A DNA stretch of 64,000 nt, taken from the NCBI RefSeq assembly GCF_900187265.1, contig NZ_LT906450.1, forward strand, positions 3,463,444-3,527,443. Direction: 5' to 3'. The notes beneath the pieces are model-generated. The model made no database searches. It was not told where the DNA came from and was given only the letters and a program-made list of their open reading frames with translations. The position numbers and the translations under genes were made by a program. The stretch is from Rhodococcus rhodochrous. Its GTDB lineage: Bacteria; Actinomycetota; Actinomycetes; Mycobacteriales; Mycobacteriaceae. This document shows positions 22,365-44,076 of the stretch, piece after piece; position 1 is the first letter of the stretch; the number at the start of each line of letters is the position of its first letter.

Positions 22365-22530
22365 GTGCCCACGATATCGGCGTCCGCCGGCGCCCTCCGC
22401 CGGGAGCCGCTCCCTCGCCGACGCGAGCATCGCGTACTGCTCCACTTCGGCCCCTCGGACCGCGACCGGCGGTAACATTCCGACCACTGGGGCGACTTCG
22501 ATTCCTCGTCCGTGGGAGGTGCTGCGAACC

Positions 22531-24197: not shown

Positions 24198-26081
24198 ATG
24201 GTCCGTAGTCTTCGCCCCATCGAGGTCTTCCCGATCACCACGCGGTACCTGAAGGTGCTCCGCGTGACGGACGTGAGCCCCGGGATGCGGCGGGTGACCC
24301 TCGGGGGCGAACAGTTGCAGGCGCACGTCGCGCCGAACGGATTCCCGGTGGAGGCGTTCCGGTCCGACGGTGTGGACGACGAGTTCAAGTTGATGTTCAA
24401 GCACCCCGACCTCGACGAGGCCCTCGGCCCCACCCAGGCGGACGGCGTGGTGAACTGGCCGCGCGATCCGAAACTGCTCATGCGCACCTACACCGTCCGA
24501 CGCTGGGATCCGGTCGCCGGCGAGATCGACGTGGACTTCGTGCGCCACGGCGTGGGTCCCGCGTCGAGCTGGTCGTACCGCGCGGAACCCGGTGAGACGA
24601 TCCAGATCGCCGGACCGAAATCGTCGGCCGGGCACCCCCAGGGCGTGGACTGGACACTCGTGGCGGGCGACGAGACGGCGCTGCCGGCCATCGGGCGCTG
24701 GCTCGAGAACTGGCCGGAGGGTGCACGCGGCCGGATCTTCGTCGAGATCGCCGACGATTCGCATCGGCAGGATCTTCCCGTTCCCGACGGAGTGGAGCTG
24801 ACCTGGCTGAGCCGCGACGGCGCCGAACCGGGCACGACGACCCTGTTGTTCGATGCCATCCGGAGCGCCGAGTGGTGGGGCGGCACGGTCTTCGCGTGGG
24901 TGGCCGGTGAAGCCCTCACGCTCACCCCCATCCGGCGGTGGCTGCGGAACGAGAAGGGTCTGCCCAAGGAACAGGTGGAGGTCACCGGTTACTGGCGTCG
25001 TCAGGAGGTCTCGGTCTCGGAAACCGACGCCTCCCTGCCCGATTTCGAGGCGACCGAGGACGAACGCGACCGCTTCGACGAACTGGCCGAGATCGCCCCA
25101 GGTTTCGCGCTGCGGGTCGCGGCGACCATCGGACTGGCGACGGCCTTCGACGCGTCACCGCGCACCCTCGACGAACTCGTGGCCAAGACGGGGACAAATC
25201 GCACCGGCCTCGGCAAACTTCTCCGCTATCTCGTCGCCGTGGGTGTGGCCGAAGATCTCGGCGAGGGCCGATTCGGGCTCACCGGCGTCGGGCGTGAACT
25301 CGAGGACGACCACCACATCGAGGAACTGCGACTCGACGGCGTGCATGCGCAACGGGAACTGGCGGGCATGCACGCACTGCTCACGGCCGTCCGCACCGGT
25401 CGCGGGGACGACGCACAGCGGTTCGGGAAGAGCTTCGCGCAGCGCGTCGCAGACGACACCGCTCTTCTGACGGATCGGTACGAGCAGGAAGCCGAGACGG
25501 CCGTCTACTTCGCCCGTGCTCTCGCAGCGAAGGTGCCCTCCGATGTCTCGACGATCGTGGTCTCCGGTGAGGCGGCCGGTTCCTATGCCCACGCGTTCGT
25601 CACGGCGAATCCGTCGGCACGGGCGACCGTGGTGGCCGCGCCGTCGGAGATCGAGGTGCTGCGTCGCGTCCACGGCGAGCACGAGCGGGTCGGCTACGCG
25701 CCGGGCAGCATGCTCGAAGTCCGGCCCGAACCGGTCGACGCGGTGCTGCTGAGCGGGCGGTTGAACGAACTGCCCGAGGCCGACGTCATGCACGTGCTGC
25801 AGCAGGCGGCCGCCGGACTGAATCCGGGCGGCCGGATCCTCGTCTTCGGCAATGTGCTCGACGACGTCGCCCGTGAGCACGACTACGAGGACGATCTCAT
25901 CGACTTCGCGCTCACCGGTGGCGGTGGCCGTACGCACGAGGACCACCTGGCACTGTTCGAGGCGGCCGGCCTCGCGGAACCCGAGCGCACGACGGTGGGA
26001 TGGGGCATGACGCTGTACACGTCCGTCGGTCGGCCCGCTCGGCGCGCGGAGGAACGGGGGTCGGGTTCAGTGTACGAGTAG
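24198..26081 (+). CDS. Siderophore-interacting FAD protein fused to a methyltransferase-like domain
   Basis: This 627-residue protein begins with a siderophore-interacting (ViuB/YqjH) ferric reductase module. The FAD-binding part is residues 1-130, with LLMRTYTVRRWD (R-x-Y-T). The NAD(P)H-binding part is about residues 135-270, with WTLVAGDETALPAIGRWLE and FAWVAGEALTLTPIRRWL. Residues 290-620 are a second module resembling the O-methyltransferase family 2: a winged-helix-like segment (RTLDELVAKTGTNRTGLGKLLRYL) and a Rossmann-like region. The SAM motif I position, VVSGEAAGSYAHAF, lacks the usual DxGGGxG, so SAM binding is doubtful. An iron-box-like site precedes the gene. The ATG at 24198 has GAGGAGA upstream. 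Confidence 0.85.
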   Translation: MVRSLRPIEVFPITTRYLKVLRVTDVSPGMRRVTLGGEQLQAHVAPNGFPVEAFRSDGVDDEFKLMFKHPDLDEALGPTQADGVVNWPRDPKLLMRTYTVRRWDPVAGEIDVDFVRHGVGPASSWSYRAEPGETIQIAGPKSSAGHPQGVDWTLVAGDETALPAIGRWLENWPEGARGRIFVEIADDSHRQDLPVPDGVELTWLSRDGAEPGTTTLLFDAIRSAEWWGGTVFAWVAGEALTLTPIRRWLRNEKGLPKEQVEVTGYWRRQEVSVSETDASLPDFEATEDERDRFDELAEIAPGFALRVAATIGLATAFDASPRTLDELVAKTGTNRTGLGKLLRYLVAVGVAEDLGEGRFGLTGVGRELEDDHHIEELRLDGVHAQRELAGMHALLTAVRTGRGDDAQRFGKSFAQRVADDTALLTDRYEQEAETAVYFARALAAKVPSDVSTIVVSGEAAGSYAHAFVTANPSARATVVAAPSEIEVLRRVHGEHERVGYAPGSMLEVRPEPVDAVLLSGRLNELPEADVMHVLQQAAAGLNPGGRILVFGNVLDDVAREHDYEDDLIDFALTGGGGRTHEDHLALFEAAGLAEPERTTVGWGMTLYTSVGRPARRAEERGSGSVYE

Positions 26082-26241
26082 GGGCACGACGGCGCGGGCG
26101 AACTCGGCCGGCTCGGCACTGGCGCCCACGTGGTTGCCGGGCACATCGATCAGAGGGAGTCCGAGCCGGTCGGCAAGTGCTTCGGTCACCGCGCCGGCCG
26201 CGCATGACGCCGCGAACCACGCAGGAGCCTCCTGCATTCGA
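26067..26241 (-). pseudogene. C-terminal remnant of an alpha/beta hydrolase
   Basis: The minus strand encodes about 58 residues, with ALADRLGLPLIDVPGNHVG and PAEFARAVVPLL, ending in TGA at 26067. That matches the usual C-terminal end of small alpha/beta hydrolases, where this histidine is catalytic. The preceding 200 or more residues, including the nucleophile elbow, are missing, and the TetR gene abuts directly. It overlaps the 3' end of the siderophore-interacting gene by 15 bases. It is probably a deletion scar. Confidence 0.6.
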
Positions 26242-26244
26242 CGC

Positions 26245-26808
26245 TCACCGGTTCGCGTACCGCGCACTCAGTTCGGCCACGCGATCCGCACGACTCTCGG
26301 GTCTCATCCGACCGGCACGTTCCAACAGGTGCATTCCGTGAAGTGCCGCCCAGAACGTCTCCGTCGCGCACCCTCTCGCGTCGTCACCGATGGTCTCGGC
26401 GAGAACGTCGAATCCCGCTCGCATGTCCGCCGGGGTGTGGGCGACGGCGAACTCCGCGTCGATGGACTGCTGGAACATCGCCTCGTAGACGGCGGGATGG
26501 GAGCGGGCGAAGTCGAGGTAGGCGTCGGCCACCGACTCGACCCTGCCTCGTGCTTCGGCATCGTCGAGCGCCGCGCGACACCGCCGTGTCAACTCGACGA
26601 AGCCCTCCATGGCGACGGTCAGCACGATCTCCGCCTTGCCTCCCGGGAAATGCCCGTAGAGCACCGGTTGCGAATACCCGATGGCTTCGGCGAGATGCCT
26701 GGTGGTGACGGCGGCCCATCCCTCGTCGTCCGCGCGGTGGCGAGCCGCGTCGACGATCGCGCGACGTCGCTCCTCGTACCGCCTTTCACGGGGGGACTGT
26801 TCGTTCAT
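26245..26808 (-). CDS. TetR-family transcriptional regulator
   Basis: This 187-residue regulator has the TetR helix-turn-helix RRAIVDAARHRADDEGWAAVTTRHLAEAIGYSQPVLYGHF (about residues 16-53, shown in family layout), then a TetR_C ligand domain (WAALHGMHLLERAGR). The ATG at 26808 is chosen because GGAGG lies six bases upstream. A four-codon-earlier ATG overlaps that ribosome site. It is divergent from a small membrane protein gene, with CTAG-rich palindromes between them, and very likely represses it and itself. Confidence 0.88.
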   Translation of the reverse strand: MNEQSPRERRYEERRRAIVDAARHRADDEGWAAVTTRHLAEAIGYSQPVLYGHFPGGKAEIVLTVAMEGFVELTRRCRAALDDAEARGRVESVADAYLDFARSHPAVYEAMFQQSIDAEFAVAHTPADMRAGFDVLAETIGDDARGCATETFWAALHGMHLLERAGRMRPESRADRVAELSARYANR

Positions 26809-26845
26809 CGAAACCTCCATTGCGCCGAACCACGATCAGGCCTAG

Positions 26846-26869
26846 TCTAGCAGTACTAGAAATTCTAGT
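26846..26869. promoter_or_regulatory. CTAG-type palindromes between tetR and DUF1772 gene
   Basis: ACTAGAAATTCTAGT (26855-26869) is a perfect 15-bp palindrome. It shares an arm with a second inverted repeat, TCTAGcagtaCTAGA (26846-26860). The pair lies in the 80-base divergent gap and fits a two-dimer TetR operator. CTAG is otherwise rare in this high-GC sequence. Confidence 0.75.
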
Positions 26870-26888
26870 GCCGATAGAAGGAGTCGCC

Positions 26889-27341
26889 ATGTCCCCCTCG
26901 CTCTCGGTGATCACCACCGTCGTCGTCGGATTGATGGTCGGTGTCGAGTTCTCGGTCGCATTCGTCATCAACCCGATCACACTGGCGCTGCCCGCACCGG
27001 CCTCGATGGCCGCCAGATCACACGGCGCACGGATGATGGGCCGCGCGATGCCCTTCTGGTACTTCGGCTCATTGATCCTCACCGGCGTACTCGCCGTGAC
27101 CACGTGGGGCACGACAGCATCGGTCGCAGCGCTCGCGGCGGCGGCCCTGCTGGCGGTGAGCGTCATCATGTCGATCGCACTGCTCGTTCCGATCAACAAC
27201 CGGTCGGCGAGCTGGACGGACGAGACCTACCCGGAGGACTGGCGCGAACAGACGCAGCGCTGGGACAACCTCCACTACATCAGGGTCGCGATCATCGTCG
27301 GAGCGTTCGCCCTGGTCGCGGTCGCCGCGACGTCCCTGTGA
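26889..27341 (+). CDS. DUF1772-type small integral membrane protein
   Basis: This 150-residue protein has four hydrophobic segments (about residues 6-32, 58-76, 80-102 and 130-148). The polar stretch before the last one, RSASWTDETYPEDWREQTQRWDNLHYIR, is the motif region of DUF1772 (anthrone oxygenase-like) proteins. Such genes are often paired with a TetR gene, as here. GAAGGAG lies before the ATG. The function is not known. It is followed at once by a strong terminator. Confidence 0.82.
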   Translation: MSPSLSVITTVVVGLMVGVEFSVAFVINPITLALPAPASMAARSHGARMMGRAMPFWYFGSLILTGVLAVTTWGTTASVAALAAAALLAVSVIMSIALLVPINNRSASWTDETYPEDWREQTQRWDNLHYIRVAIIVGAFALVAVAATSL

Positions 27342-27393
27342 CCGAGAGAGCACCCGCAGCAGAGCTCGGCCCGCACATCGCACGGAACGCAAA

Positions 27394-27433
27394 CGACGAC
27401 ACCCGTTCCGAATCATCGGAACGGGTGTCGTCG
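27394..27433 (+). terminator. Strong terminator after DUF1772 gene
   Basis: A perfect 18-bp inverted repeat (27394-27411 with 27416-27433) has a 4-base ATCA loop, 52 bases past the DUF1772 stop. It marks the last core feature before the accessory island. Confidence 0.85.
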
Positions 27434-27437
27434 TGGA

Positions 27438-27899
27438 GTGGACCTTGGGGGACCTTACTACAACCCTGAAACCGCAGGGAGAAGCCCTGAAACGCCGGCA
27501 GAAGCCCTGGAGTTTCTGATCCAGAAGCTACCCGACCCGACAAGTCCGGCCCCGCCACCCGTGGAGCACCCCAAACCCCGGCGGGTACGGCAACTCGACG
27601 CCGAGGAAGTCGCAGAGCTGATCACCGGATACAAGGCCGGAGCGACCGTGTACGAACTGGCCAACCGATTTGGTATCGAACGACGCACAGTCAGCGGCAT
27701 CCTCCACCGACACGATGTACCGATGCGCCGCCGGGGCCTGTCCCCCGACCAGGTCGACACTGCCATCCATCTCTATAGGCTCGGCTGGCCACTCGCAAAG
27801 GTCGGCAACCATCTCGACGTCAACCACACAACCGTTCTGGCCGCACTGCGTCGACGCGGAGTACCCACGAGGGATTCTCAGGGACGGGCGCGTCGGTGA
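27438..27899 (+). CDS. Protein with two helix-turn-helix segments (resolvase/transposase-type)
   Basis: This 153-residue reading frame contains two Hin/resolvase-like DNA-binding segments. The first is [19 protein letters not shown] and [18 protein letters not shown] (about residues 56-92). The second is [19 protein letters not shown] followed by [21 protein letters not shown] (about residues 102-141). Such small proteins are common in actinomycete accessory regions, often as remnants of recombinases, and the catalytic domain is absent. The N-terminal 40 codons are Pro-rich and contain CCCTGAAAC repeats, so the true start may be further in. A homologous fragment lies at the opposite end of the island. 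Confidence 0.6.
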
Positions 27900-28059
27900 T
27901 CGACACCGAACCGGGTCGCGGCCGACTCGACCTTGCCTCGACAGCTTTCGGTCGAGCTCGTCGGCTGTCGAGTAGACCACGCGCGGGCGCGCAGGATCAG
28001 GCAGGTGGTGGTGGCGTGGGAGACTCGGTTGCATGAGCGCCGACGTCGGCCCGCATCGG

Positions 28060-28235
28060 CAACCCCGCCGCAACGATCCGCTCGAGGTGGGCGATGCCTT
28101 GCACATGAGAAAAGCCCATGTCCGGTCCAATCCCCGTGTTGTGACAGCCTTTTTCGTCCGGCATAGCTTCGGTGTAGGCGAGCCGGGCAGAAGCCGTCGA
28201 CCGCGGAGTGCAGGTAGAGACATCCAGCCATTGCT
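28060..28235 (-). pseudogene. Degraded IS481-type transposase fragment
   Basis: On the minus strand, LYLHSAVDGF is followed, after a one-base frameshift near 28192, by RLAYTEAMPDEK and, further on, HVQGIAHLERIV. These align with YVYLHSAVDGFSRLAYTEALADEK and AAHGIVHIHRVV of the intact IS481-family transposase at 44.2-45.2 kb. Only about 60 codons remain. The surrounding 27900-28389 otherwise shows no recognisable gene. Confidence 0.65.
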
Positions 28236-28560
28236 CCGAGCCGTTTGGCTGCGTCGGCGGTTCCAGATGGCGCGGAACCGCGACCGTGGGCCCGCCGGCC
28301 GCCGCCATCGACGATTATCCGGGCCGGGGCATCGGCGGTGGTGGCGAGATAGTGCCGTTGGTGGTGAACCATGATCAGGTCATTCTGCCCTAACCGATCC
28401 GGCTGATCCCCGACCACAGGTCGCAATGATGCTCGGCGGCGAAGGAATCGGCGGTGCTGATCCCAGAGCTGCTCATTTCGAGAGTGGAGCCGGGGGTGGT
28501 CGGCCAGTCGGCGAAGTCCGCTGTCACCGGATCGCCGGTGTGGGCGAAACGTGCCCAGCT

Positions 28561-29988
28561 CTACTGGATGCGGCGGGAGAGCTGGTCGCCTGCCGGGGGA
28601 AGCGGGATCGGGATGCCGAGCAGCTCGGTGAACACGTAAGGAAGTTCGGCCGCGTGAAAGGCGCCGGGAAGCACCGGGTTCTGACCGAGCGGCGCTTCGT
28701 TGAAGCGGTATTGCCAGACCTCGGCCCCACCGGCACGCGCGGCCTCGGTAGTGAACAGTGCTGGGCACGCGAAGAATCCGTCGGTGAGCACCTTCTCCTT
28801 CGCCTTGACCGGGGAGGAGAAATCGACTGGCGGGTATTGGCGCAAAACCTGGCCCGCGTTGTCGCCGAACAGTTCCTGGGCCCAAGCCAGGTAATCGGAT
28901 TCATCGGGGATCATGCCTTTCAGGTAGTCGAGCAGGGCGATGAAAGTGGCGCCTTCGTCGGCGTTGCTGCCTACCAGGAGCGGCATGTCGCGGGCGGCTC
29001 CGGCGGCGAGCGCCTGTTCTGGAGCGGAGGTCAACACGACGCCGTCCTGTACGGGGCTCCAGGCGACCGCCATCGAATGCAGTTCGGCGCTGGGCGAATC
29101 CAGCAGCTTCCCGACCGGAAGAGCGCGCAGGCAGTTCAGTCGCGTGTGCGGATCGCGGCAACCGAGGCTCGCCGCGTAGTCGGCCGACCGCTGGAAGGCG
29201 AGTTCGGAGTCCGGAGGTGACAGCGGGCTGCGCGCGCATGAGCCGCTCTGGATGATCGCCCGGTGGAAAAGGCCCCGCGCCAGCGGCGAAGCGAGCTGCG
29301 TGCACACACTCATTCCGCCGGCCGATTCGCCGAAGAGGGTGACATTGCCGGGGTCGCCACCGAACGCGGCCGCATTCTCCTGGATCCAGCGCAGCGCGGC
29401 CTGTTGATCGAGTGTGCCGTAGGTCCCGGTGATGCCGCCGGTGCTGTCGGCCAGTTCGGGTAGCGCAAGGAAACCGAACGGGCCGACCCGGTAACTGGGG
29501 ATAGCCACGATGACCTTGTCCTCACGCACCAGCCGGTCGGGGGAGTCGTACTGGGCGTTGGAGCCGAGTACGAAGGCGCCACCGTAAATCCACACCATCA
29601 CCGGAAGAACCGCGCCCGCAGAGTTCTCCGGCACATAGATATCGATACTCAGGCAGTCCTCGCTCGATTCTTGCACCGCCAGCCCGAACGGCGCCGGAGA
29701 CGCCTGCGGGCACTGCGGCCCATGCGCGTGGGTCGCAGGTACACCCGTCCACGGAGCGACCGGTTGTGGTGGTGCGAAACGGTTTTCACCCGAGGTGGGT
29801 GCGGCAAACGGAACACCGAGGTATTCGACAATCCCATTGGCGTGCCGACCGCTGATGGGTCCGCCCGTGACAGTGACTACCGTGTCGTCGGGTGCCGCCG
29901 CGGCGGGCGGAACCACCACTGCCGCACTGGCACTCATGAGGACTGCGGCTGCCACCAGCAGTCGACGGAAGGATCTCGGGTTCCGCAA
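28561..29988 (-). CDS. Secreted type B carboxylesterase, cut short by an in-frame amber codon
   Basis: This esterase of about 475 residues has a signal peptide (RRLLVAAAVLMSASAAVVV, then PPAAAAPDD). It has the oxyanion segment WIYGGAFVLGS, the nucleophile GESAGG, the acidic residue in GSNADEGATF and the catalytic histidine in GAFHAAELPYVF. Translation stops at TAG (28561-28563) after LSRRIQ. The frame then stays open for 56 codons (SWARFAHTGDP through AAEHHCDLW, to 28390), exactly the C-terminal end expected for the family. The triad is intact, so a shortened enzyme is possible. Start: TTG 29988 with GGGAG seven bases upstream fits best. ATG 29937 would cut the signal peptide. Confidence 0.75.
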   Translation of the reverse strand: MRNPRSFRRLLVAAAVLMSASAAVVVPPAAAAPDDTVVTVTGGPISGRHANGIVEYLGVPFAAPTSGENRFAPPQPVAPWTGVPATHAHGPQCPQASPAPFGLAVQESSEDCLSIDIYVPENSAGAVLPVMVWIYGGAFVLGSNAQYDSPDRLVREDKVIVAIPSYRVGPFGFLALPELADSTGGITGTYGTLDQQAALRWIQENAAAFGGDPGNVTLFGESAGGMSVCTQLASPLARGLFHRAIIQSGSCARSPLSPPDSELAFQRSADYAASLGCRDPHTRLNCLRALPVGKLLDSPSAELHSMAVAWSPVQDGVVLTSAPEQALAAGAARDMPLLVGSNADEGATFIALLDYLKGMIPDESDYLAWAQELFGDNAGQVLRQYPPVDFSSPVKAKEKVLTDGFFACPALFTTEAARAGGAEVWQYRFNEAPLGQNPVLPGAFHAAELPYVFTELLGIPIPLPPAGDQLSRRIQ

Positions 29989-30067
29989 CGCAACGCTCCC
30001 GCAGTAAAATACTTTTGGAACAAAACCACTGTAGGTGACCGGCCTCACAGAGGGAAGAGTGCGCGAC

Positions 30068-30499
30068 TTATTCGTCCAGCACGGACAGCAATCGCCGCAA
30101 GGCCGGAACCGCGGATTCCAGGACTTGCTGATCCTCTGGTGACAGTTTCGCCAGCGAGTCCCGTAGCATCGACGCACTGGCCCGGTCGTACCTGGCCAAC
30201 AGTTCCTTGGCCCGCGCCGTCGCGACAAGCACCACCCCGCGCCCATCCTCGGACGACGGCACCCGATCCACCAGATCCGCCATCGTCCGCACCAGATTGC
30301 TCACCGTCGACTGCGCCACCTTGAGCTCGAACGCCGCCCGCCCCGGCGCCAGACCATCCTGCGACACCAGCAATCTCAGCAGTTCGATCTGCGCCTCCGG
30401 CAAATCGGGCAATCCCTCCAGCACCCGCGTCCGTCGCAGCACCGCTCGCCGCAACGGTCCGAGCAACGCACTCAACTGAGCTTCGACCCCACCTGCCAT
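30068..30499 (-). CDS. MarR-family transcriptional regulator
   Basis: This 143-residue protein has the MarR winged-helix pattern: LPEAQIELLRLLVSQDGLAPGRAAFELKVAQ (helix-turn-helix, about residues 34-64), STVSNLVRTMADLVDRVP and the wing SSEDGRGVVLVATARAKEL. The ATG at 30499 is chosen because homology starts soon after. It precedes the carboxylesterase gene on the same strand and may control it. The IS3-family element begins about 60 bases upstream of its start and could have displaced its promoter. Confidence 0.85.
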   Translation of the reverse strand: MAGGVEAQLSALLGPLRRAVLRRTRVLEGLPDLPEAQIELLRLLVSQDGLAPGRAAFELKVAQSTVSNLVRTMADLVDRVPSSEDGRGVVLVATARAKELLARYDRASASMLRDSLAKLSPEDQQVLESAVPALRRLLSVLDE

Positions 30500-30627
30500 C
30501 CCACCATTCTCCCGGCCTCGCACGAAAGGCTGTGCGTGGTGTCCCGCGGGAAGCCCAGGGGCCTTGACCCCGGTTCTTGGACACGCTGAATCCAGCATCT
30601 GCTGGGGAAGCGAGATGATCTTCAGTC

Positions 30628-30993
30628 ATGTCACGAAAGAACTACTCGGAGGAGTTCCGGCGCCAGGCGGTCGAGTTGTACGAGTCCACGCCGGGCGCGA
30701 CGATCCGAGGTATCGCCGCTGACCTCGGGGTCGTGCGCGGCACCTTGACAGGCTGGATCGACCAGTACGGGACCGGCACCAAAACCCACGTCGACGGCAC
30801 CCGGGTGCATACTCCGGCACGGCCCCACAACCCGAGCCCCGGCACGGGTAGCGAATCGGAGACCGTCGAGCAGAAACTCGCCCGTCTCGAAGCCGAGAAC
30901 GCCGCCCTACGAGCGGAAGCAACCAAGCTCACCACCGAACGCGAGATCCTTCGTAAGGCGGCCAAGTATTTCGCCGGGGAGACGAACTGGTGA
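30628..30993 (+). CDS. IS3-family transposase OrfA
   Basis: This 121-residue protein has the IS3 OrfA helix-turn-helix (SEEFRRQAVELYESTPGATI, then RGIAADLGVVRGTLTGWI). It ends with a leucine-zipper-like coiled coil (EQKLARLEAENAALRAEATKL) and the typical ILRKAAKYFA. Its stop overlaps the orfB start (GTGA) rather than showing a clear slippery frameshift run, so OrfB may be made by coupled initiation. Confidence 0.92.
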   Translation: MSRKNYSEEFRRQAVELYESTPGATIRGIAADLGVVRGTLTGWIDQYGTGTKTHVDGTRVHTPARPHNPSPGTGSESETVEQKLARLEAENAALRAEATKLTTEREILRKAAKYFAGETNW

Positions 30994-31886
30994 CCCGCTT
31001 CCAGTTCGTCGCCGACCACTCCGACACCTATCAGGTGAAGCGGTTGTGCGAGCTCGTCGAGCTCGAGCGTTCGTCCTACTACGCCTGGAAGTCCGCCGAG
31101 CCGGACAGGACCGCTCGCGCCGCGGCCGACGCGCAGCTGGCCGAACGAATCCGGGCGATCCATACCGAGGACAACACCTACGGAGCACCCAGGATCACCG
31201 CAGAACTCAACGATGGCGTCACCGTGAACGAGAGGGTCAACCACAAGCGGGTGGCCCGGGTGATGCGTCAGAACAGCATTGTCGGCTACCGCCGTCGACG
31301 ACGGGTCACGACCACCGTCCCAGAACCTGCGGACCAGAAGGTGCCCGACCTGCTCGAGCGGGACTTCACCGCCCCTGCACCGAACTGTATCTACGTCGGC
31401 GACATTACATATTTACCGATCGAGGGCGGTGCCAACCTGCATCTGGCGACGGTGATCGATTGCTACTCCCGCAAACTCGCCGGCTGGGCGATCGCCGACC
31501 ATATGCGCACCGACCTCGTCGCCGACGCTCTCCTTGCTGCTCATGGAGATCGTAATGGATTGTCCGGGTCTATCTTTCACTCCGATCACGGCGCGCAATA
31601 CACCTCGAAGGATTTCGCTTCCCTCTGCGCCGACCTCGGCGTCACCCAGTCGATGGGTAAAGTCGGCACGAGCGCCGACAACAGTCTCGCCGAATCCTTC
31701 AACGCCGCCCTCAAACGAGAAGTCCTCCAGAACGCGAACGTCTGGTCGGACGAAGCCACGTGCCGGCGTCAGGTGTTCCGTTGGGTCACCCGCTACAACA
31801 CCCGACGACGACATTCCTGGTGCGGACACCGGTCCCCGAACACCTACGAGACCCTCTACATCGCTACGCTGGCATCCGCGGTGTAA
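30990..31886 (+). CDS. IS3-family transposase OrfB (DDE integrase)
   Basis: This 298-residue protein has the HTH_21 region (YGAPRITAELN, RVARVMRQNSIVGY) and an integrase core with all three acidic residues: D in YVGDITYLPIEGG, D in FHSDHGAQYTSKDF and E in NSLAESFNAALKREV. The final RYNTRRRHSWCGHRSPNTYE is typical of the IS3 family. It appears intact and could be active. Confidence 0.93.
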   Translation: MTRFQFVADHSDTYQVKRLCELVELERSSYYAWKSAEPDRTARAAADAQLAERIRAIHTEDNTYGAPRITAELNDGVTVNERVNHKRVARVMRQNSIVGYRRRRRVTTTVPEPADQKVPDLLERDFTAPAPNCIYVGDITYLPIEGGANLHLATVIDCYSRKLAGWAIADHMRTDLVADALLAAHGDRNGLSGSIFHSDHGAQYTSKDFASLCADLGVTQSMGKVGTSADNSLAESFNAALKREVLQNANVWSDEATCRRQVFRWVTRYNTRRRHSWCGHRSPNTYETLYIATLASAV

Positions 31887-32118
31887 TCCACCACCCGTGT
31901 CCTTTTGCTGGGGGTAAGGCCCACGCCGGCGGGCGCCGGGAATGGACAGCGGTATCGGGCATGGTCGATCCCTTCGAGTTCCGCTCCCACCGGATCGGTT
32001 GCCGCTCGGGGGTCTATCGGCCGACTGCGGCGAGCGAACTCGTACAGCTGTCCGATCGGTCGGGGGAGGGCGGTCGGTTCAGTGATGGACTCCCATCGCC
32101 GTACCACCGAGACATTGA

Positions 32119-32176
32119 TGATGATATCGTCACATGCGACGCAAGTCTCAGTCAAGTAGATATGACGAATTCGTCA
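32119..32176. promoter_or_regulatory. Left copy of the paired-operator region
   Basis: Two palindromes, TGATGATATCGTCA (32119-32132) and the perfect TGACGAATTCGTCA (32163-32176), start 44 bases apart. CAGTCAAG lies between them. The arrangement repeats the operator region beside the TetR gene at 38 kb. No intact gene starts next to it now. Sequence left of it ends at the IS3-family element, so the gene it once served was probably lost. Apart from this and the terminator at 32408, the gap 31923-32446 shows no recognisable gene. Confidence 0.65.
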
Positions 32177-32407
32177 CTATATGGTGCGCACACCCATGTG
32201 CCATGGATTTCACGGCCAACCTCAGGCGATCGATGAGACGTGGATCTTCCGGCATCAGCAGCGCCGGAGCCGGATCTGCACCGCCCGTCGCCGCGCGGCC
32301 GGCAGCCTCGACGACCGGATACGATGCGAGGTTCGTGTGTGGACGGGTCGATCCGAGCTGGAGAGCGGGCGTGACGTAGGTGCGGATCGGGTTGCGCCGA
32401 CCTCGAA

Positions 32408-32435
32408 CACCTCCCGGCCGACCGGCCGGGAGGTG
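32408..32435 (-). terminator. Terminator of the catabolic operon
   Basis: A perfect 12-bp inverted repeat (32408-32419 with 32424-32435) with loop GACC lies 12 bases past the stop of the FAD monooxygenase gene, the last gene of the operon. Confidence 0.75.
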
Positions 32436-32446
32436 AGGGGAAACCG

Positions 32447-34048
32447 TTACCGGATTCCCCCTGCTTCGGCCGCATCGTGGGCACCGTCCGACCAACTACA
32501 GCGGTCGCGATAGACCACTTTGCAACAGGTGTCCGATACCGGCAGGCGGACAACCGCGTCGCACAGACGTGACAGGTCACGGCCGGCGCACTGAACGGTG
32601 CCGTCGGGGCGGATCAGCGCAGCGCGGGCGCGCCCCTGGCGCAGCCAACGATGGAGTTCCTCCCCTGCGTTGGTGATGATCAGGACCGCAGCGCGGTCCT
32701 CCACCATCGCGCGCTGGGCCGCGGTCGGTGTCCGCGAGGTGATGAGGGCGAACCGGCCCGTGATGAGGTCGTCAAGTCGCCGGCCGTCCGGTAGTGGTGG
32801 ATTCGGAACGAGTCGTCCAGCGAGGCTGGTGAAGCGCGCAGTCTTGGTCACCAGGCTGCTGTGGTGGAGCGCGGGGGTCTCGCCATTTATGAAACGCCGG
32901 TCGAACCCGGGCATGCGGTGCACATGCGGTGCGAAGACCCGGCGAGCTCGGCTACCGATCTCACCACCGGCGGTCATCGATGCGCCGAGCAGCATCGCGA
33001 TCCGAATCATCGCCTGCGCGTGCGGCTTTCGTTCGATTTCGTAGCTGTCGAGGGCGTCGTCGCCGAGCTCGCCACTGAGTACCGCGGCCAGCTTCCAGCT
33101 CAAGTTCGCGGCATCTCGGAGTCCGGCGCCCATGCCCTGGCCGATGAAGGGTGGTGTCAGGTGCGCCGCGTCGCCCAGCAGAAAGGTGCGCCGGGAGCGC
33201 CACTGCTGGGCGACCCGTGCACAAAAGGTGTACTCGGCCACCCGAAGCAGCTCGAAATCGGCGAGCGCGACCGACTCGGTCCAGGGCCGGATCAACGGCA
33301 GCAGATCCTCCATCTTCTGATAGTCGGAGGCGGATTCGTTCGGCAGCAGCTGAAATTCCCAGCGATATCGCTGTTCCCCGATACGCATGAAGGTGGCGGC
33401 CCGGTTCGGGTCGCTGACCTGGTGTATACCGTCCCACTGTGCCAGTTCGGCGCTGGTGGCCACATCCACGACCAGCCAGCGTTGCCGGAAACCGAAGTCT
33501 CGCATGCCGACGCCCATCGATGTGCGCACGATACTGTTCGCACCGTCGCAGCCGAGCAGGTACCGGCCGCGGATCGAATTCCGAGCACCGGTCCGGCGGT
33601 CGATGTAATCGACACGGACACAATCAATTTCATCGACAGATCCGATGACCTCCACCTCGCCACGGATAGTGACCTCGGAGCGGTGACCGGCATTTTCGCG
33701 CAGTATCGCTTCCAGCTCCGGTTGATCGAACAGATTGGCCTCGGGATGCCCGTTGCGGCCCGGGTTGGGGTCACGATCGAACTGCGCCAGTACATGACGC
33801 CCGACTCCGTCGATCAAGCGCAGCCCGAGCGCGGGCCGGGAGATGGCATCGAATGCGGTGCCCACCCGCAACCGGGTCAGTATCCGGCGGACCTCACCGT
33901 CGAGATGCACCGCGCGGGGTTGCGGATAGACGCCGTTCCAGCGCTCCAAGACAACCGTTTCGATACCGTACTGCGCGAGCAGGGTCGCGGCCGTCAACCC
34001 GCTGGGCCCCGCGCCGACGACCACGACCGGAACTGCGGCAGTGCTCAT
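32447..34048 (-). CDS. FAD-dependent aromatic monooxygenase (MhpA-like)
   Basis: This 533-residue flavin hydroxylase adds a hydroxyl group to a phenolic ring using NAD(P)H and oxygen. The dinucleotide motif is VVGAGPSGLTAATLLAQYG (about residues 10-28). The DG motif is LLGCDGANSIVRTS (about residues 164-177). The second FAD motif is FLLGDAAHLTPPFIGQGMGAGLRDAANL (about residues 290-317). Overall it resembles 3-(3-hydroxyphenyl)propionate hydroxylase, including a thioredoxin-like C-terminal part. It is the last gene of the operon, two bases after the FAH-family gene. It would prepare a catechol for the extradiol dioxygenase. Confidence 0.87.
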   Translation of the reverse strand: MSTAAVPVVVVGAGPSGLTAATLLAQYGIETVVLERWNGVYPQPRAVHLDGEVRRILTRLRVGTAFDAISRPALGLRLIDGVGRHVLAQFDRDPNPGRNGHPEANLFDQPELEAILRENAGHRSEVTIRGEVEVIGSVDEIDCVRVDYIDRRTGARNSIRGRYLLGCDGANSIVRTSMGVGMRDFGFRQRWLVVDVATSAELAQWDGIHQVSDPNRAATFMRIGEQRYRWEFQLLPNESASDYQKMEDLLPLIRPWTESVALADFELLRVAEYTFCARVAQQWRSRRTFLLGDAAHLTPPFIGQGMGAGLRDAANLSWKLAAVLSGELGDDALDSYEIERKPHAQAMIRIAMLLGASMTAGGEIGSRARRVFAPHVHRMPGFDRRFINGETPALHHSSLVTKTARFTSLAGRLVPNPPLPDGRRLDDLITGRFALITSRTPTAAQRAMVEDRAAVLIITNAGEELHRWLRQGRARAALIRPDGTVQCAGRDLSRLCDAVVRLPVSDTCCKVVYRDRCSWSDGAHDAAEAGGIR

Positions 34049-34049
34049 C

Positions 34050-35018
34050 TCAGCGCGCGCCTCGCACGGTGGTGCGCTGGGTACCGAGGTCGATGGCTCC
34101 GTCGTCGGTGCCGATAAATACTTCGATGAGGTCCCCGGGTTGGAGGTACTTCGGATTCTTGGCCTGGCGGTCGAAGAATATCTTCCATTTCAGCTTCGGC
34201 GGCAGCAGCGACCCGATCATCTCCACGGGCTTGGGTGGTGCACTGAGCGCAGTGCCGATCGGCGTCCCGGTCAGCAACAGATCCCCGGCATCCATACGCT
34301 GGAACCGAGTCAGGCTTCGCAGAGTCTCGACCGGCTTGTAAATCATGTCGGTCACCGTCATATCCTGGCGGATATCGCCGTTGACCCACAGTCGCAGCCT
34401 CAGTTCGTCGAATCGCTTCAACTCGTCGGCGTCCATGAGCACCAGCGCCGGACCGACCGGAGTGAAAGTCGGATATGACTTTCCCTCGTAGAACTGGGTT
34501 TTGGGGAGTTGCACATCGCGTGCGGAGATGTCGTTCGTGACAACCAGGCCGGCGATGTAGTCGGCCAGATTCGCTGCGTCGATGTGCGATCCGACCGGCA
34601 TCGCCCGGCCGAAGACGAGCCCGATCTCGACCTCGTAGTCGAGCAATCGCACATGCTCGGGGCGAATCACATCGTCATAAGGCCCACTCACCGAACCGGA
34701 TGTCTTGCGGAAGAACGTGAGCGGAACCGACTCCGGATCGCCTCCCGAATCCTTGACATGCGACGCGAAATTCGTCATCTGCGCCACAACCCGGCACGGA
34801 GCGGTCACCGGCGACACCAGCGCGAGTTCACTGACCGGAACCAATTGCGGCGCGAGTTCGCTGATGGGAACAACTTCGCTGTTGCGGCACGCGGCGTTGA
34901 TCGCGGGCCGGACAGCGAGAAGTTCGGCGGTGGTTGTCGCATCCGTATCGATCCGGGCCGCTCCTGCGGGTGTTTGCACCCACCAGGCATCGGCGGTGCG
35001 AAGAACAGTCACAGTCAT
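34050..35018 (-). CDS. Fumarylacetoacetate hydrolase family protein
   Basis: This 322-residue enzyme belongs to the FAH family, which cleaves or hydrates keto-enol acids made by ring fission. The metal-site pattern is visible in LLDYEVEIGLVFGR (with E-x-E) and in VVTNDISARDVQ. GKSYPTFTPVGPALV and GDLLLTGTPIGTA follow, as in 2-hydroxyhepta-2,4-diene-dioate isomerase or acylpyruvate hydrolases. Its start overlaps the stop of the dioxygenase gene by four bases. In this operon it should act on the meta-cleavage product, replacing the more usual MhpC-type hydrolase and MhpD hydratase. Confidence 0.87.
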   Translation of the reverse strand: MTVTVLRTADAWWVQTPAGAARIDTDATTTAELLAVRPAINAACRNSEVVPISELAPQLVPVSELALVSPVTAPCRVVAQMTNFASHVKDSGGDPESVPLTFFRKTSGSVSGPYDDVIRPEHVRLLDYEVEIGLVFGRAMPVGSHIDAANLADYIAGLVVTNDISARDVQLPKTQFYEGKSYPTFTPVGPALVLMDADELKRFDELRLRLWVNGDIRQDMTVTDMIYKPVETLRSLTRFQRMDAGDLLLTGTPIGTALSAPPKPVEMIGSLLPPKLKWKIFFDRQAKNPKYLQPGDLIEVFIGTDDGAIDLGTQRTTVRGAR

Positions 35019-36151
35019 GTACGGGCTACTTTCATCAGGCCGAATAACCGGCGAAGGTCGAATTCGTTGTCGTTCCCACCGACTGCGCGAAATATCGAAA
35101 GCAGCTCACGCAGCGATTCCGGGCCGGGCGATATCCCCAGGAAATCTCGCGTCGCCGGTGGACCCCATTGAGACAGGCCGGAGGCCGTCATGGGAGCCCA
35201 ACCTGGCTCGAGGGTGTTGTCGAACATGTCACCGTCGCTGAAATGCTCGACCAGGAAGCCGTCGGGATCGCGCCAGTAATCGAAGATCTGGCTCCCTTGA
35301 ATATGCCGCCCGATACCCCATGACCGGCGATATCCGTGATCCTGGAGATATTCACCGCCCGCAGCGAGTGTGTCCAGGTCGGCCACCTGAAAAGCCGAGT
35401 GGACGTATCGATTCGAGGGACCGAGGGTCAGCGCGAGCGTATGGTGATCGACCGGGATCGACCCCTGATCGCATCGGATGAAACTCATGACCGGGCCACG
35501 ATCCCGCTGCCCCGGGAAAAACAGGAAATCGCTGACGATCAAGCCTAGGTACTGCAGGTACCAATCGAGCGTCTGCCGATACCGTGTCGTCTGGACGACT
35601 ACGTGCCCCAGACGCTGAATACGCGCCGGCGCTCGCGGGGAACGCTGCGTGCTGTTGATCCGAGTCAGGCGTTCCCCGAAGTTGAGGCTCAACGGAGGGG
35701 GTGCCGGTAACGCATCGAGTTCACGGGTGTCGCAGACAACTCTGACGCGAAGCCCGCTCGGGTCGACGAGCGTAACCGCCATCCCACCGATCGATTCGGG
35801 TAGCGCCACAACTCGCGACCCCACTGCGTCGCCGAGTCGCTTCAGATCCGACCTTTCGGCGGCGCGAAATGCCGGACCGAGGAATCGGGAGCGGGGAGCG
35901 CGGCGTACCCGAATGCATGGTGAACCAGGTTCGGTTCCACGGAGCTGCAACTCGGCCTCGGTCCGGGACGCGGTCGCGAACCCGAACGCATGGGCGAACG
36001 CCTCGGCCCGGCGAAGGTCGGGTTTTTCGAACTCCAGCCAGGCCAGATCCACGACCTTCACCACCGGGTTCACTGCCCGTCCCAGGTGTTCACCCGGCCG
36101 GGCGCCCTCAGCGCTGTGCAGACCCGCATGAGCGTCATGACGACCGTTCAT
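35015..36151 (-). CDS. Extradiol ring-cleavage dioxygenase (VOC family)
   Basis: This 378-residue protein has two vicinal-oxygen-chelate domains, about residues 30-140 and 180-315. The C-terminal one carries the iron ligands: His in RLGHVVVQ, His in YVHSAFQVADL and Glu in FLVEHFSDG. The N-terminal domain is divergent, as in BphC-type enzymes. A C-terminal extension of about 60 residues ends the protein. It is coupled to both neighbours by four-base overlaps. It should cleave a catechol made by the FAD monooxygenase. The ring substituent is not known. Confidence 0.84.
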   Translation of the reverse strand: MNGRHDAHAGLHSAEGARPGEHLGRAVNPVVKVVDLAWLEFEKPDLRRAEAFAHAFGFATASRTEAELQLRGTEPGSPCIRVRRAPRSRFLGPAFRAAERSDLKRLGDAVGSRVVALPESIGGMAVTLVDPSGLRVRVVCDTRELDALPAPPPLSLNFGERLTRINSTQRSPRAPARIQRLGHVVVQTTRYRQTLDWYLQYLGLIVSDFLFFPGQRDRGPVMSFIRCDQGSIPVDHHTLALTLGPSNRYVHSAFQVADLDTLAAGGEYLQDHGYRRSWGIGRHIQGSQIFDYWRDPDGFLVEHFSDGDMFDNTLEPGWAPMTASGLSQWGPPATRDFLGISPGPESLRELLSIFRAVGGNDNEFDLRRLFGLMKVART

Positions 36152-37929
36152 CGGAGTGCGCCCGCCTGGTCGCTGTAGATACCCTCGATCGTCTCGGCGT
36201 AATTGCGGAGCACAACGGCGCGTTTCACCTTGAGGCTCGGGGTGAGTTCGCCGGATTCCACGGTCAGATCGCGTGGCAGTATCCGGTACTGTTTGATCGT
36301 TTCCCAGCGGTTGAGCCTGCAGTTGACCTCGGAGATTGCCTGCTCGACTGCTGTCGACACTGCATCGTCCGGCAGGTCACCGCGCACTTCGGGGTCGATG
36401 GTCAGCAGAATGCTCACGAAGTTTCGTCCGTCGGCGACCACAACTGCCTGCGACACCAGTGGGCAGGTGGCCACTACCGCCGATTCGATCAGGGCCGGTG
36501 CGATGAACTTTCCACCGCTGGTCTTGACCAGATCCTTTTTACGATCGGTGATCTTCAGGAACCCGTCGGCATCGACCTCACCGATATCACCGGTGGCGAA
36601 CCACCCGTCGGCGTCGATGACCTCGGCAGTTTGCTCTGGTAGACCGTGGTAGCCGCGCATGATCCCGGGCCCCCGCAGCATGATCTCTCCGTCATCGGCG
36701 ATGCGGACCTCGGTTCCCGGGAAGGGCTGTCCGACGGTGCCGATACGAATATCGCCCGGCCGGTTCACGAATGCGGCGCCCGTGGTCTCGGTGAGGCCGT
36801 ATCCCTCGTTGATCGCCAGGCCGATGGCCGCGAACCACTCGGCGATCTGCGGCGACAATGCTGCACTACCGGAGACGAGGTACTCGATCCGTCCGCCGAA
36901 ACCGCGCCGGATCCGCGCGAAAACGAGCCGGTCAGCAACGAAGAGTTGCATCCGTTGCAGCACCGTGGCCCGACCGGCCGAGCGTCGGCGAACAGCGTCG
37001 ACCCCGACCGCGATAGCCCAGTCGAAAAGGGCTTTCCGCATGCCCCCCTGGGCAGTGACCATGCTGACGACCCGGGCGTGAATCTTCTCGAAAACGCGCG
37101 GTGCAGCGGCCATGAAGGTCGGCCGGATGATCGGCAGGTTGTCGACGATCCGGTCTATCCGGCCGTCCACCGCCGTAACGAACCCCGTTTCGTACTGGGC
37201 GGCGAGCAGCAACTTGCCGAAGACATGGGACAACGGCAGCCACAGAAACTGCACGTGGTCGGGCCGGACAACGTCCTCACTCGCCACCGCCGCGCCCAAG
37301 TAGAGCCAGTTGGCATGGGTCAACTCCACCCCTTTGGGTCGTCCCGTGGTGCCCGAGGTGTAGATGATCGTCGCGAGTTGATCGCGACCGACCGCCCGCA
37401 CGGACTTGACAACAGCATCCGCGTCTTCTCGAAGATGCCTGCGGCCGAGCAGCGCCAGTTGCGCAAGCGTGAGGACCGAATCATCGGCAGCGTCGGCGTC
37501 GCCGTCGAACAGCACAACATGGCGCACCGCGGTTTCGGAGGCTCGAATCTTTGCCAGCTGATCACGATCCTCGGCGAAGACGACGACAGCGCCGGCGTCC
37601 GCCAGGATGTAGCCGACACCTTCGGCGTTCGTACTCGGGTACACAGTGGTGGTCGCCGCGCCGGCCAGCGCAATGGCGAGATCGGCAAGGATCCATTCCA
37701 GACGGGTCGAGCCGGCAATGGCAACCCGGTCTTCCGCGAGCACACCCAAGGCAAGCAAACCTGCGGCGAGGTCCGTGGCACGCCGAGCAGTCTCCGACCA
37801 CGTCAAGGTCAGCCAGCCCGTATCCGTCTCATTGGGCGCACGGAACGCCGGTGCATGCGGCGCCCTCCCGGCCTGAGCGAGGAAACACGCGCCGACCGAG
37901 TCAAATTTGTCAACGGCGAGAGTGGTCAT
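36148..37929 (-). CDS. Long-chain-type acyl-CoA ligase (FadD15-like)
   Basis: This 593-residue AMP-forming ligase activates a carboxylic acid as its CoA ester. The complete signature IIYTSGTTGRPKGVELTHANW is present, with NEGYGLTETTGA, GYHGLPEQTAEV, FATGDIGEVDADG, ITDRKKDLVKTSGGKFIAP and a C-terminal lysine region (LKVKRAVVL). The ATG at 37929 (MTTLAVDKF) is chosen. A longer reading runs into the operator region. It is the first gene of the operon, reading away from the TetR gene. It suggests the pathway starts with, or produces, an aromatic or aliphatic acid. Confidence 0.9.
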   Translation of the reverse strand: MTTLAVDKFDSVGACFLAQAGRAPHAPAFRAPNETDTGWLTLTWSETARRATDLAAGLLALGVLAEDRVAIAGSTRLEWILADLAIALAGAATTTVYPSTNAEGVGYILADAGAVVVFAEDRDQLAKIRASETAVRHVVLFDGDADAADDSVLTLAQLALLGRRHLREDADAVVKSVRAVGRDQLATIIYTSGTTGRPKGVELTHANWLYLGAAVASEDVVRPDHVQFLWLPLSHVFGKLLLAAQYETGFVTAVDGRIDRIVDNLPIIRPTFMAAAPRVFEKIHARVVSMVTAQGGMRKALFDWAIAVGVDAVRRRSAGRATVLQRMQLFVADRLVFARIRRGFGGRIEYLVSGSAALSPQIAEWFAAIGLAINEGYGLTETTGAAFVNRPGDIRIGTVGQPFPGTEVRIADDGEIMLRGPGIMRGYHGLPEQTAEVIDADGWFATGDIGEVDADGFLKITDRKKDLVKTSGGKFIAPALIESAVVATCPLVSQAVVVADGRNFVSILLTIDPEVRGDLPDDAVSTAVEQAISEVNCRLNRWETIKQYRILPRDLTVESGELTPSLKVKRAVVLRNYAETIEGIYSDQAGALR

Positions 37930-38035
37930 GTCACAGCTTTCGTGTGGTGTTGCGAAAGACGGAAGGGACGCCGGACCCCATGCGAGATCGCAGCGCGTGC
38001 CGTGATGGTCGGCCATCGTCACCAACCTTCACTGA

Positions 38036-38092
38036 TGACGATATCGTCACCTACGAACAGCACGTCAGTCAAGACAATTGACAGAATCGTCA
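38036..38092. promoter_or_regulatory. Right copy of the paired-operator region (catabolic operon / tetR)
   Basis: The perfect palindrome TGACGATATCGTCA (38036-38049) and the related TGACAGAATCGTCA (38079-38092) start 43 bases apart in the 182-base divergent gap between the acyl-CoA ligase and tetR genes. TTGACT on the minus strand between them may be the -35 of the operon promoter, so repressor binding would flank the promoter. A near-copy lies at 32119-32176. Confidence 0.75.
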
Positions 38093-38111
38093 TTACTGAC
38101 GCCACGCAGGT

Positions 38112-38774
38112 ATGATCGACCGAGTGACCGCTCCCCAGAATCGGCTCGAACGCCGCAAGCTGAGAACTCGGACAGCACTCATCAGCGCTGCCCAATCACT
38201 GCTCGCGGCAGGGAATCAGAACGTGCCCGTCCTGCAGATCACGCAGCTCGCCGACGTCGGGATGGGTTCCTTCTACAATCACTTCGAAACGAAGGAACAG
38301 CTGTTCGAAGCAGCGGTCGACAACGCGCTAGAGGCGCTCGGCGATGTACTCGATGCGCTGACCGACCACCTGACCGATCCGGCAGAAATCTTCGCGCAAT
38401 CCCTCCGGTTGACCGGACGCCTGCATCGACTCGCACCAAAGATGAGCAAGGTCGTACTCTCGGCAGCACCCGGCCAGATGTCATCGGATCGCGGACTTGC
38501 CGCACGCGCCCGCCGCGACCTCGCCAGCGGCATCGAAGCCGGCCGCTTCTCGATCCCCGACCTCGACCTCACGCTCGTTGTGGTGTCCGGAGCCGTCGTG
38601 TTCCTCGGTCAACTGCTGCACGACCAGCCCGACCGCGACGACGCGGCCGCCAGCGACCGAATCACCGAGGATCTACTGCGTTTCGTCGGAGTTCCCGATG
38701 AGGAAGCACGTGCGATCTGCGCTCAACCACTCCCCGACCTACAACAGCTGCTCGCGGACACCGCGATCTGTTGA
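38112..38774 (+). CDS. TetR-family regulator of the catabolic operon
   Basis: This 220-residue regulator has the TetR helix-turn-helix (RRKLRTRTALISAAQSLLAA, then VLQITQLADVGMGSFYNHFETKE with the recognition helix; about residues 14-64). A ligand domain follows. It lies divergent from the acyl-CoA ligase gene with two TGACGnnnnCGTCA palindromes between them, so it very likely represses the operon until a pathway intermediate, perhaps a CoA ester, binds. The start at 38112 (ATG) has a GCAGG upstream. Confidence 0.88.
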   Translation: MIDRVTAPQNRLERRKLRTRTALISAAQSLLAAGNQNVPVLQITQLADVGMGSFYNHFETKEQLFEAAVDNALEALGDVLDALTDHLTDPAEIFAQSLRLTGRLHRLAPKMSKVVLSAAPGQMSSDRGLAARARRDLASGIEAGRFSIPDLDLTLVVVSGAVVFLGQLLHDQPDRDDAAASDRITEDLLRFVGVPDEEARAICAQPLPDLQQLLADTAIC

Positions 38775-38790
38775 TCAGTGGGCACGGTAA

Positions 38791-38971
38791 TGCTCGGTCA
38801 CGATCGTTCGCCGGACCCCGGATCTGGTACAGCTCACGGTCACCTACCCGGACAGCTACGCATCCAAATTCGACCTCGGCGTGTTCTGGCACGCGCAGTC
38901 GCCAGCGCTGCTAGAGGTCGGACCCGTCCTGCACCCCGACTACGCGGTAGCCGGCAATATGGACGCCCTGT
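38791..38971 (+). pseudogene. Unrecognised gene fragment
   Basis: A frame open from 38791 reads RRTPDLVQLTVTYPDSYA and then SKFDLGVFWHAQSPALLEVG with HPDYAVAGNMDALF. Its codon use looks like real coding sequence, but there is no start codon before the fragment. It then runs into the HTH remnant in another frame. I do not recognise the family. It may be the middle of a gene broken when the island formed. Confidence 0.3.
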
Positions 38972-39154
38972 TCAACCGAACAAGCCGACCACGCGATCGA
39001 CCTCTACAGCCGAGGCTGGTCCCTGGCCAAGGTAGCCCGACACATCGCCGTCAACCCGACCACAGTCCTGACCCGACTGCGCGAACGCGGCGTCCGAACT
39101 CGCGACAACCCACGGACGAACCCGGCCCTGACAACCGACAGCCAGCTGGCCTGA
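38972..39154 (+). pseudogene. HTH protein remnant, related to the gene at the other end of the island
   Basis: About 60 codons read EQADHAIDLYSRGWSLAKVA, then HIAVNPTTVLTRLRERGVRTRDN, and end in TGA at 39152. This aligns with the second helix-turn-helix of the protein at 27438-27899. The first helix-turn-helix and the start are missing. It is probably a truncated copy of the same family rather than a working gene. Confidence 0.6.
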
Positions 39155-39282
39155 AGGCAGCCGAGTCCTCCCGACCTAATCAACACCAGGAGCAACGAAG
39201 ACACTTTAGGGGAACTAGAACCCTCACAACCAGGATTTCCCCTGCTCAGCGCCACGTCCAGATTGAGCGTCCAGTAGCAACA

Positions 39283-39315
39283 GTGAACCCCCAAGTCTCT
39301 GACCTGGGGGTTCAC
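39283..39315 (-). terminator. Terminator after tRNA-Ala copy 1
   Basis: An 11-bp inverted repeat (39283-39293 with 39305-39315) immediately follows the 3' end of the tRNA on the minus strand. Confidence 0.7.
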
Positions 39316-39318
39316 CTA

Positions 39319-39394
39319 TGGTGGAGCTAAGGGGACTCGAACCCCTGACCCCCACACTGCCAGTGTGGTGCGCTACCAGCTGCGCCATAGCCCC
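39319..39394 (-). tRNA. tRNA-Ala (GGC), CCA encoded
   Basis: The minus strand folds as a cloverleaf: acceptor GGGGCTA with TAGCTCC, anticodon loop CTGGCAG (anticodon GGC), T-arm GGTTCGAGTCC. The discriminator A is followed by an encoded CCA (complement of 39319-39321). It is identical to the second copy over 73 bases, except that the second copy lacks CCA. Confidence 0.95.
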
Positions 39395-43901: not shown

Positions 43902-44076
43902 GTGCTCTCCTCGTCGAAGGTGGTGTTCTCATCTTGCCGCCGATCCGCGGCACGCGCGGGATGAGTACCCCGATCCGCGCGTCGATACGGACAACGGACG
44001 AAATGGTCATCGCGGCCGCGGGACCAAAGTTTCTGACTCGAAAGTAATGTTGGTGCTCACAATTAGGTGGGCTAAC

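Follow-up and report, generated by a model that had tools for sequence, protein, structure and literature searches.

Why should what looks like a complete promoter-operator stand beyond the far end of an operon, where no intact gene follows it? The question is raised by a 64,000-nucleotide stretch of the Rhodococcus rhodochrous genome (contig NZ_LT906450.1, positions 3,463,444 to 3,527,443) – the window, in whose coordinates all positions are given below – in which an aromatic catabolic operon is flanked by two copies of the same two-palindrome element. One of them, OO_R, lies between the operon and a divergent tetR gene; the other, OO_L, lies past the last gene of the operon. The answer that we consider fairly probable is that OO_L is an orphan, the relic promoter-operator of a second leftward unit – most likely a dioxygenase-type operon – that has since been deleted.

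32119..32176, minus strand: left candidate promoter-operator (OO_L), with palindromes O1 at 32119-32132 (TGATGATATCGTCA) and O2 at 32163-32176 (TGACGAATTCGTCA)
38036..38092, minus strand: right candidate promoter-operator (OO_R), with palindromes O1 at 38036-38049 (TGACGATATCGTCA) and O2 at 38079-38092 (TGACAGAATCGTCA)

Re-reading of the sequence bore out the positions that a preliminary description of this DNA had given for all four palindromes, as well as their spacing, with starts 44 bases apart in OO_L and 43 in OO_R, and the stretch CAGTCAAG common to both between the palindromes. Across the 5.27 Mb of the genome, TGAYRRWWTCRTCA is matched at four places only – the palindromes of OO_L and OO_R – and a reversed-pattern control at none. 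When up to two mismatches to TGACGAWWTCGTCA are allowed, the window holds five matches against 0.65 expected and a maximum of three in 100 shuffles, the fifth being a solitary site at 43996.

The double palindrome is shared with other members of the family: of 301 family genomes, 41 contain the paired pattern, the present genome counted (control matches: 0), and it stands mostly before extradiol-dioxygenase operons, such as those of Nocardia niigatensis, Rhodococcus jostii and Mycobacterium yunnanensis. A sample of 70 operator pairs in 66 loci of relatives – the window locus being excluded and lone palindromes elsewhere not being counted as pairs – reveals a recurrent order, namely O2, 6-9 bp, TTGAC(t), 18 bp and GACGAT inside O1. 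The motif TTGAC/GTCAA, which the search pattern did not require, lies between the palindromes in 69 of the 70 pairs; the remaining one (L085:14851) is omitted from the oriented counts. Of 67 distinct oriented sequences, both window copies counted, 66 have a spacer of 18 between TTGACN and the hexamer at O1+1, the odd one having 17; the hexamer itself reads GACGAT in 62. This recurrence of TTGAC-18-GACGAT suggests that the operator probably contains the promoter, which would fire in the direction leading away from O2. OO_L and OO_R each keep every element of the layout (TTGACT, the 18-bp spacer and GACGAT), and in OO_L the -35 element TTGACT lies on the minus strand between O1 and O2, with the -10-like GACGAT within O1. 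Both copies are directed leftward, so that OO_L points away from the operon. On the O2 side, a divergent gene labelled tetR is found in 51 of the 69 oriented pairs; some of the 18 misses come from a simple gene caller that extended tetR through the operator (e.g. L013, L110) or missed tetR altogether (L072, L075), and others have another gene or none on that side (e.g. L050, L107, L113).

38112..38774, plus strand: RolR-subfamily TetR regulator, divergent from the operon

The regulator in question is the product of this gene. Compared with solved structures, it gives a strong match only to RolR of Corynebacterium glutamicum (3aqs, E 4.6e-34; next 7.3e-05), in a phmmer alignment covering residues 8-211. 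The helix-turn-helix (HTH) motif of the RolR subfamily, IxxxAxxGxGxFYxxF, is present as ITQLADVGMGSFYNHF, and counterparts of the effector-pocket residues Asp94, Arg145, Arg148 and Asp149 are found by eye in the phmmer alignment to 3aqs, with the numbering shifted by 16 via the motif; both the motif and the four residues are named in PMC3086911. At E <= 1e-20 and E <= 1e-25, this is the single RolR-like tetR of the genome. Within the genus, 5 of 18 genomes carry a RolR-like TetR and all five carry the pair, which the strict pattern detects in four and a relaxed scan in G001, while no pair was found by the strict pattern in the other 13, to which the relaxed scan was not applied. Both window copies look like promoter-operators of the RolR-like TetR, which would bind them.

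36148..38016, minus strand: acyl-CoA synthetase (ACS32; ACS below), with an in-frame dioxygenase-like start at 38016
35015..36151, minus strand: extradiol-type ring-cleavage dioxygenase (DOX) of the glyoxalase superfamily, with its own N terminus MNGRHDAHAGLHS
34050..35018, minus strand: fumarylacetoacetate-hydrolase family protein (FAH)
32447..34048, minus strand: flavin adenine dinucleotide (FAD)-binding aromatic hydroxylase (MOX)

Leftward from tetR, the operon reads ACS-DOX-FAH-MOX, and OO_R would drive it in that direction; extradiol models match DOX below their curated cut-offs. What lies past MOX is summarised by four further features.

32408..32435, minus strand: hairpin with 12-bp arms, 11 bp past the monooxygenase stop codon
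32082..32096, minus strand: candidate degenerate dioxygenase gene start, ATG GGA GTC CAT CAC followed by the stop codon TGA, 22 nt after O1 of OO_L
31923..32118, no strand: 196-bp gap between OO_L and the insertion sequence (IS), with no homologue recognised apart from the possible start at 32082-32096
30559..31922, plus strand: IS3-family element of 1364 bp, with ends GGGCC...GGCCC

The hairpin is likely to be the terminator of the operon: the z-score for folding of the 66-nt stretch is -4.58, and none of 200 shuffles folds as well. As it stands between the operon and OO_L, the latter would lie beyond the operon's probable end and belong to a separate unit. That the distal copy has no intact gene and an IS3 element close by, as previously described, holds: the IS ends at 31922, leaving 196 bp to the left palindrome. 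The bases flanking it in the window are CCAG and ACGC, with no target duplication; a sister copy elsewhere in the genome (G000:C1:5160720-5162083; identity 100% when rounded, though not letter for letter) is flanked, by eye, by TGA and TGA. A missing target duplication fits a deletion or rearrangement beside the IS.

If a unit has been lost here, what was it? The preliminary description had noted that the likeness of the two copies extends to the left of the palindromes. The extension is real, but it is short – in a pairwise alignment of the surroundings the likeness has faded by about 25-40 bp from the operator – and consists mostly of the start of a dioxygenase gene, M-x-x-H-H. In relatives, the dioxygenase begins 17-25 nt past O1 (with one outlier at 3) and has first residues such as MSDHHDPHTGLHSEQGAL, as judged from 44 starts picked by a DOX-like motif out of the 69 pairs. 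OO_R is followed by ATG GCC GAC CAT CAC (MADHHGTRCDL), which is clearly DOX-like: among the 3763 ATG/GTG starts of the window, only 1, 1 and 2, itself counted, score as high over the windows -12..+18, +1..+18 and -12..+15, respectively. The ATG after OO_L likewise opens M-x-x-H-H, as do many dioxygenase starts, and is suggestive – though only that – of the degenerate start of a lost dioxygenase gene. A third inverted repeat by both copies, GATGG-N4-CCATC, was considered as an additional operator and set aside, being located at the start codon and missing beside the other 69 pairs.

A cleaner instance of such a loss, from another genus of the family, offers a precedent: in genome G061 the sole RolR-like tetR lies between two outward pairs. 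The second of these pairs aligns with the second operon of genome G277 over 101 bp (81%), comprising the operator and the first dioxygenase codons, whereupon the alignment skips about 3.85 kb and continues at a YflT-domain gene (539 columns, 85%). G277 has two such operons with pairs of their own: the first with a pair, a dioxygenase start and, 4-6 kb on, a monooxygenase; the second with DOX, FAH and MOX. The comparison indicates that an operator can indeed survive the deletion of DOX-FAH-MOX. The two operons of G277 and their reduced form in G061 share with the window the type of regulator and the paired operator, and in G061 the second operator was kept after DOX-FAH-MOX had been lost; unlike the window, where only 196 bp and an IS follow, G061 still has the YflT-domain gene next to its relic. 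The earlier proposal that one regulator served two transcription units, one since destroyed, is therefore our best reading of the locus: its first part agrees with the single RolR-like tetR and the family layout of both copies, its second with the precedent in G061.

Several results weigh against a vanished dioxygenase operon. As a dioxygenase start, the one beside OO_L scores weakly (123, 182 and 6 of the 3763 starts score as high in the three windows, the last of which was fixed after the OO_L stop codon had been noticed), and the test is a blunt one, given that the intact DOX start of the window yields 61, 5 and 356. No dioxygenase coding is recognised beside OO_L past codon 5. The proteins of 50 loci (841 queries), compared by tblastn with the stretch left of OO_L, gave nothing better than E 4e-4, and a translated comparison of 31923-32446 with the proteins of 70 loci gave nothing at E <= 1e-4; as DNA, 31925-32446 matched only the operator and short pieces in 401 family genomes, and plasmids searched for the lost unit gave no match. 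To this must be added the pairs that head genes of other kinds, taken up below, and a bias in the class frequencies, since L103-L113 were fetched because they resemble OO_L, and L119-L127, for the most part, because they resemble MOX.

Among the short pieces are GC-rich ones at about 32249-32320, between OO_L and the end of the operon, with matches in some two dozen family genomes (best E 8.7e-6). The hairpin region also gave matches, as did two pieces left of OO_L (E 1.6e-4 and 5.3e-4); all are taken as chance. An open frame of 63 residues (31919-32107, taking in the last four bases of the IS) was likewise rejected as a gene: in a search of 301 genomes, 58 others gave a match at E <= 0.05, the best of them at E 0.0016, but no consistent partner emerged, and the matches are attributed to chance.

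Could OO_L have headed some other kind of unit under the same regulator – a P450, short-chain dehydrogenase/reductase (SDR) or hydrolase gene – that is now lost? Pairs do stand before P450-cluster genes (L051, L069-L071, L073, L074, L076, L078, L079, L113) and before alpha/beta hydrolases (L062, L067), and at L051 a P450-like start lies 23 nt past O1, at about the distance of the OO_L ATG; the want of recognised dioxygenase coding past the fifth codon would also suit this idea. At the other P450 loci, however, the gene starts 35-55 nt past O1 with unlike first codons (the script put two at 0, which is probably an error), the ATG after OO_L opens M-x-x-H-H, and the five best matches to OO_L, in a set partly gathered by that very likeness, all head dioxygenase operons. 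We regard a unit of another kind as unlikely. Still less probable, in our estimation, is that OO_L arose within the island described below as a duplicate of OO_R or of the whole operon, as the preliminary description had offered as its alternative. The common orientation, the common promoter elements and a dioxygenase-like start after both copies (weak at OO_L) would agree with it, and ACS-DOX-FAH-MOX followed by a further operator is what a tandem copy cut off by an IS would be expected to leave. Yet the two copies are only 81% identical, they differ in spacing, and their similarity soon fades outside the operator. The closest relative of OO_L is L103 (identity 0.897), followed by L104 and L050 (both 0.862), with OO_R only ninth of 70 (0.81; median 0.776); OO_R for its part is closest to L080 (0.877) and has OO_L in sixteenth place of 70. 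As OO_L is thus nearer to operators of other genera (identity of up to 90%) than to OO_R, duplication as a recent event finds no support, although an old duplication may have occurred.

Finally, OO_L might still be in use, for a small leftward transcript, for control of the genes beyond the IS, for looping with OO_R or for titration of TetR. Its promoter and operator elements are all intact though no gene follows, and past the IS, a MarR-like gene (best model just under the Pfam cut-off) and a carboxylesterase gene are read leftward; less tellingly, in six loci of genus g6 with a pair before P450 genes, a carboxylesterase with 31-33% identity to that of the window occurs at a distance of about 3-7 kb from the pair. 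Against this, those six carboxylesterases are on the strand opposite the P450 genes, the IS intervenes in the opposite orientation and is recent, judging by its near-identical sister copy, and the sole comparable operon-less second copy among the 70 mapped loci is the remnant in G061. Continued use accordingly strikes us as very improbable, and the MarR-like and carboxylesterase genes were not adopted as the unit of OO_L. Elsewhere in the genus, the carboxylesterase has only 37-38% identical matches, in 3 of the 17 other genomes.

Returning to the relic of a deleted operon, we can sketch how the system might have worked and decayed. By analogy with TetR and RolR, one TetR dimer would occupy each palindrome; with O2 just upstream of the -35 element TTGACT and O1 over the -10 box, the bound regulator would block RNA polymerase, and an aromatic effector would release it, as with other TetR repressors, including RolR. 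OO_R would serve ACS-DOX-FAH-MOX, and OO_L would once have served the second leftward unit, whose deletion – with a junction near its first codons and a gap now closed by the IS3 element – would have left the operator an orphan.

Such an arrangement has only partial parallels among known systems. Like the window TetR, RolR of C. glutamicum, the resorcinol repressor (PDB 3AQS/3AQT), adjoins an aromatic-hydroxylase operon, although the window operon differs in encoding an extradiol-type dioxygenase together with an FAH protein. According to PMC9210681, the operator of RolR, rolO, is one 29-bp site, TGAAC-N4-GTTCA plus TTCAT-N2-ATGAA, located downstream of the start site and acting by roadblock repression. 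The window sites are of another type: pairs of TGACGA-WW-TCGTCA, that is, two separate 14-bp palindromes, 43-44 bp apart, that embrace a putative promoter with its -35 and -10 elements. QacR, CgmR and EthR place more than one dimer on an operator, sharing, as PMC9210681 describes them, one site of 28 to 55 bp; more than one dimer per operator region is also what we propose for the window, where, in contrast, each dimer would have a 14-bp site of its own, and some four helical turns, with the -35 box in the interval, separate the two sites. The ipp cluster described in PMC12442392 is a different one. In the open literature on the 14-mer, on RolR/rolO and on the gene combination, subscription papers not being covered, no description of this operator was found.

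For a widespread branch of RolR-type regulators, the locus supplies an operator that is precisely defined and open to testing, arranged differently from that of the one RolR-type member whose operator was found described. It also indicates how an operator of this kind can persist once its operon has gone, and in the orphan OO_L nature provides a test of whether binding by TetR is enough in itself to preserve one.

The dioxygenase-like start beside OO_R opens the reading frame of ACS, an apparent in-frame capture (37929-38016) in which one gene begins with the start of another; the native ACS start is probably the ATG at 37929. The ACS leader might instead be the remnant of a monooxygenase 3' end plus spacer, an arrangement found in G032 and G058, but local alignment gave this no significance, equally good scores arising in 50 of 300 and 202 of 300 shuffles. 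One might speculate – we would give this rather less than an even chance, and by some distance – that the operator-promoter and the first dioxygenase codons form a recurrent capture cassette. Deletions starting just inside the dioxygenase gene would fuse switch and start codon to whatever DNA lies downstream, having captured ACS at OO_R, the YflT protein in G061 and, as yet, nothing at OO_L; new genes would, if so, come under the RolR-like regulator through such fusions.

26035..39318, no strand: accessory island of about 13.3 kb, from the end of a core gene to tRNA-Ala(GGC)

Both copies lie in this island. Of five close relatives that were fetched, four have an empty site here: the core of G008, G005, G013 and G003 runs up to about 26024-26034 and continues from 39320-39321, precisely at tRNA-Ala(GGC). 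In the fifth, G007, it resumes at tRNA-Ala too, and the left match ends at 22383. Two HTH-type frames, similar on comparison by eye, lie near the island ends, at 27438-27899 (with weak matches to Cbp1 and IS481 models) and at about 38950-39155, and are possibly traces of the element that brought the island.

Two further features of the relatives concern tetR itself. At L106 (8474), L111 (5456), L122 (4107) and L123 (15833), tetR and the paired operator are kept apart by an additional gene of about 540-680 bp, and a similar single palindrome, TGACGAATTCCTCA, lies between tetR and that gene, perhaps as a third operator for tetR itself. Four g6 genomes – G149 (L071/L072), G186 (L079/L080), G195 (L077/L078) and G262 (L074/L075) – carry two RolR-like tetR genes, both provided with a paired operator of their own; one adjoins the dioxygenase operon and the other a P450/ferredoxin-reductase cluster.

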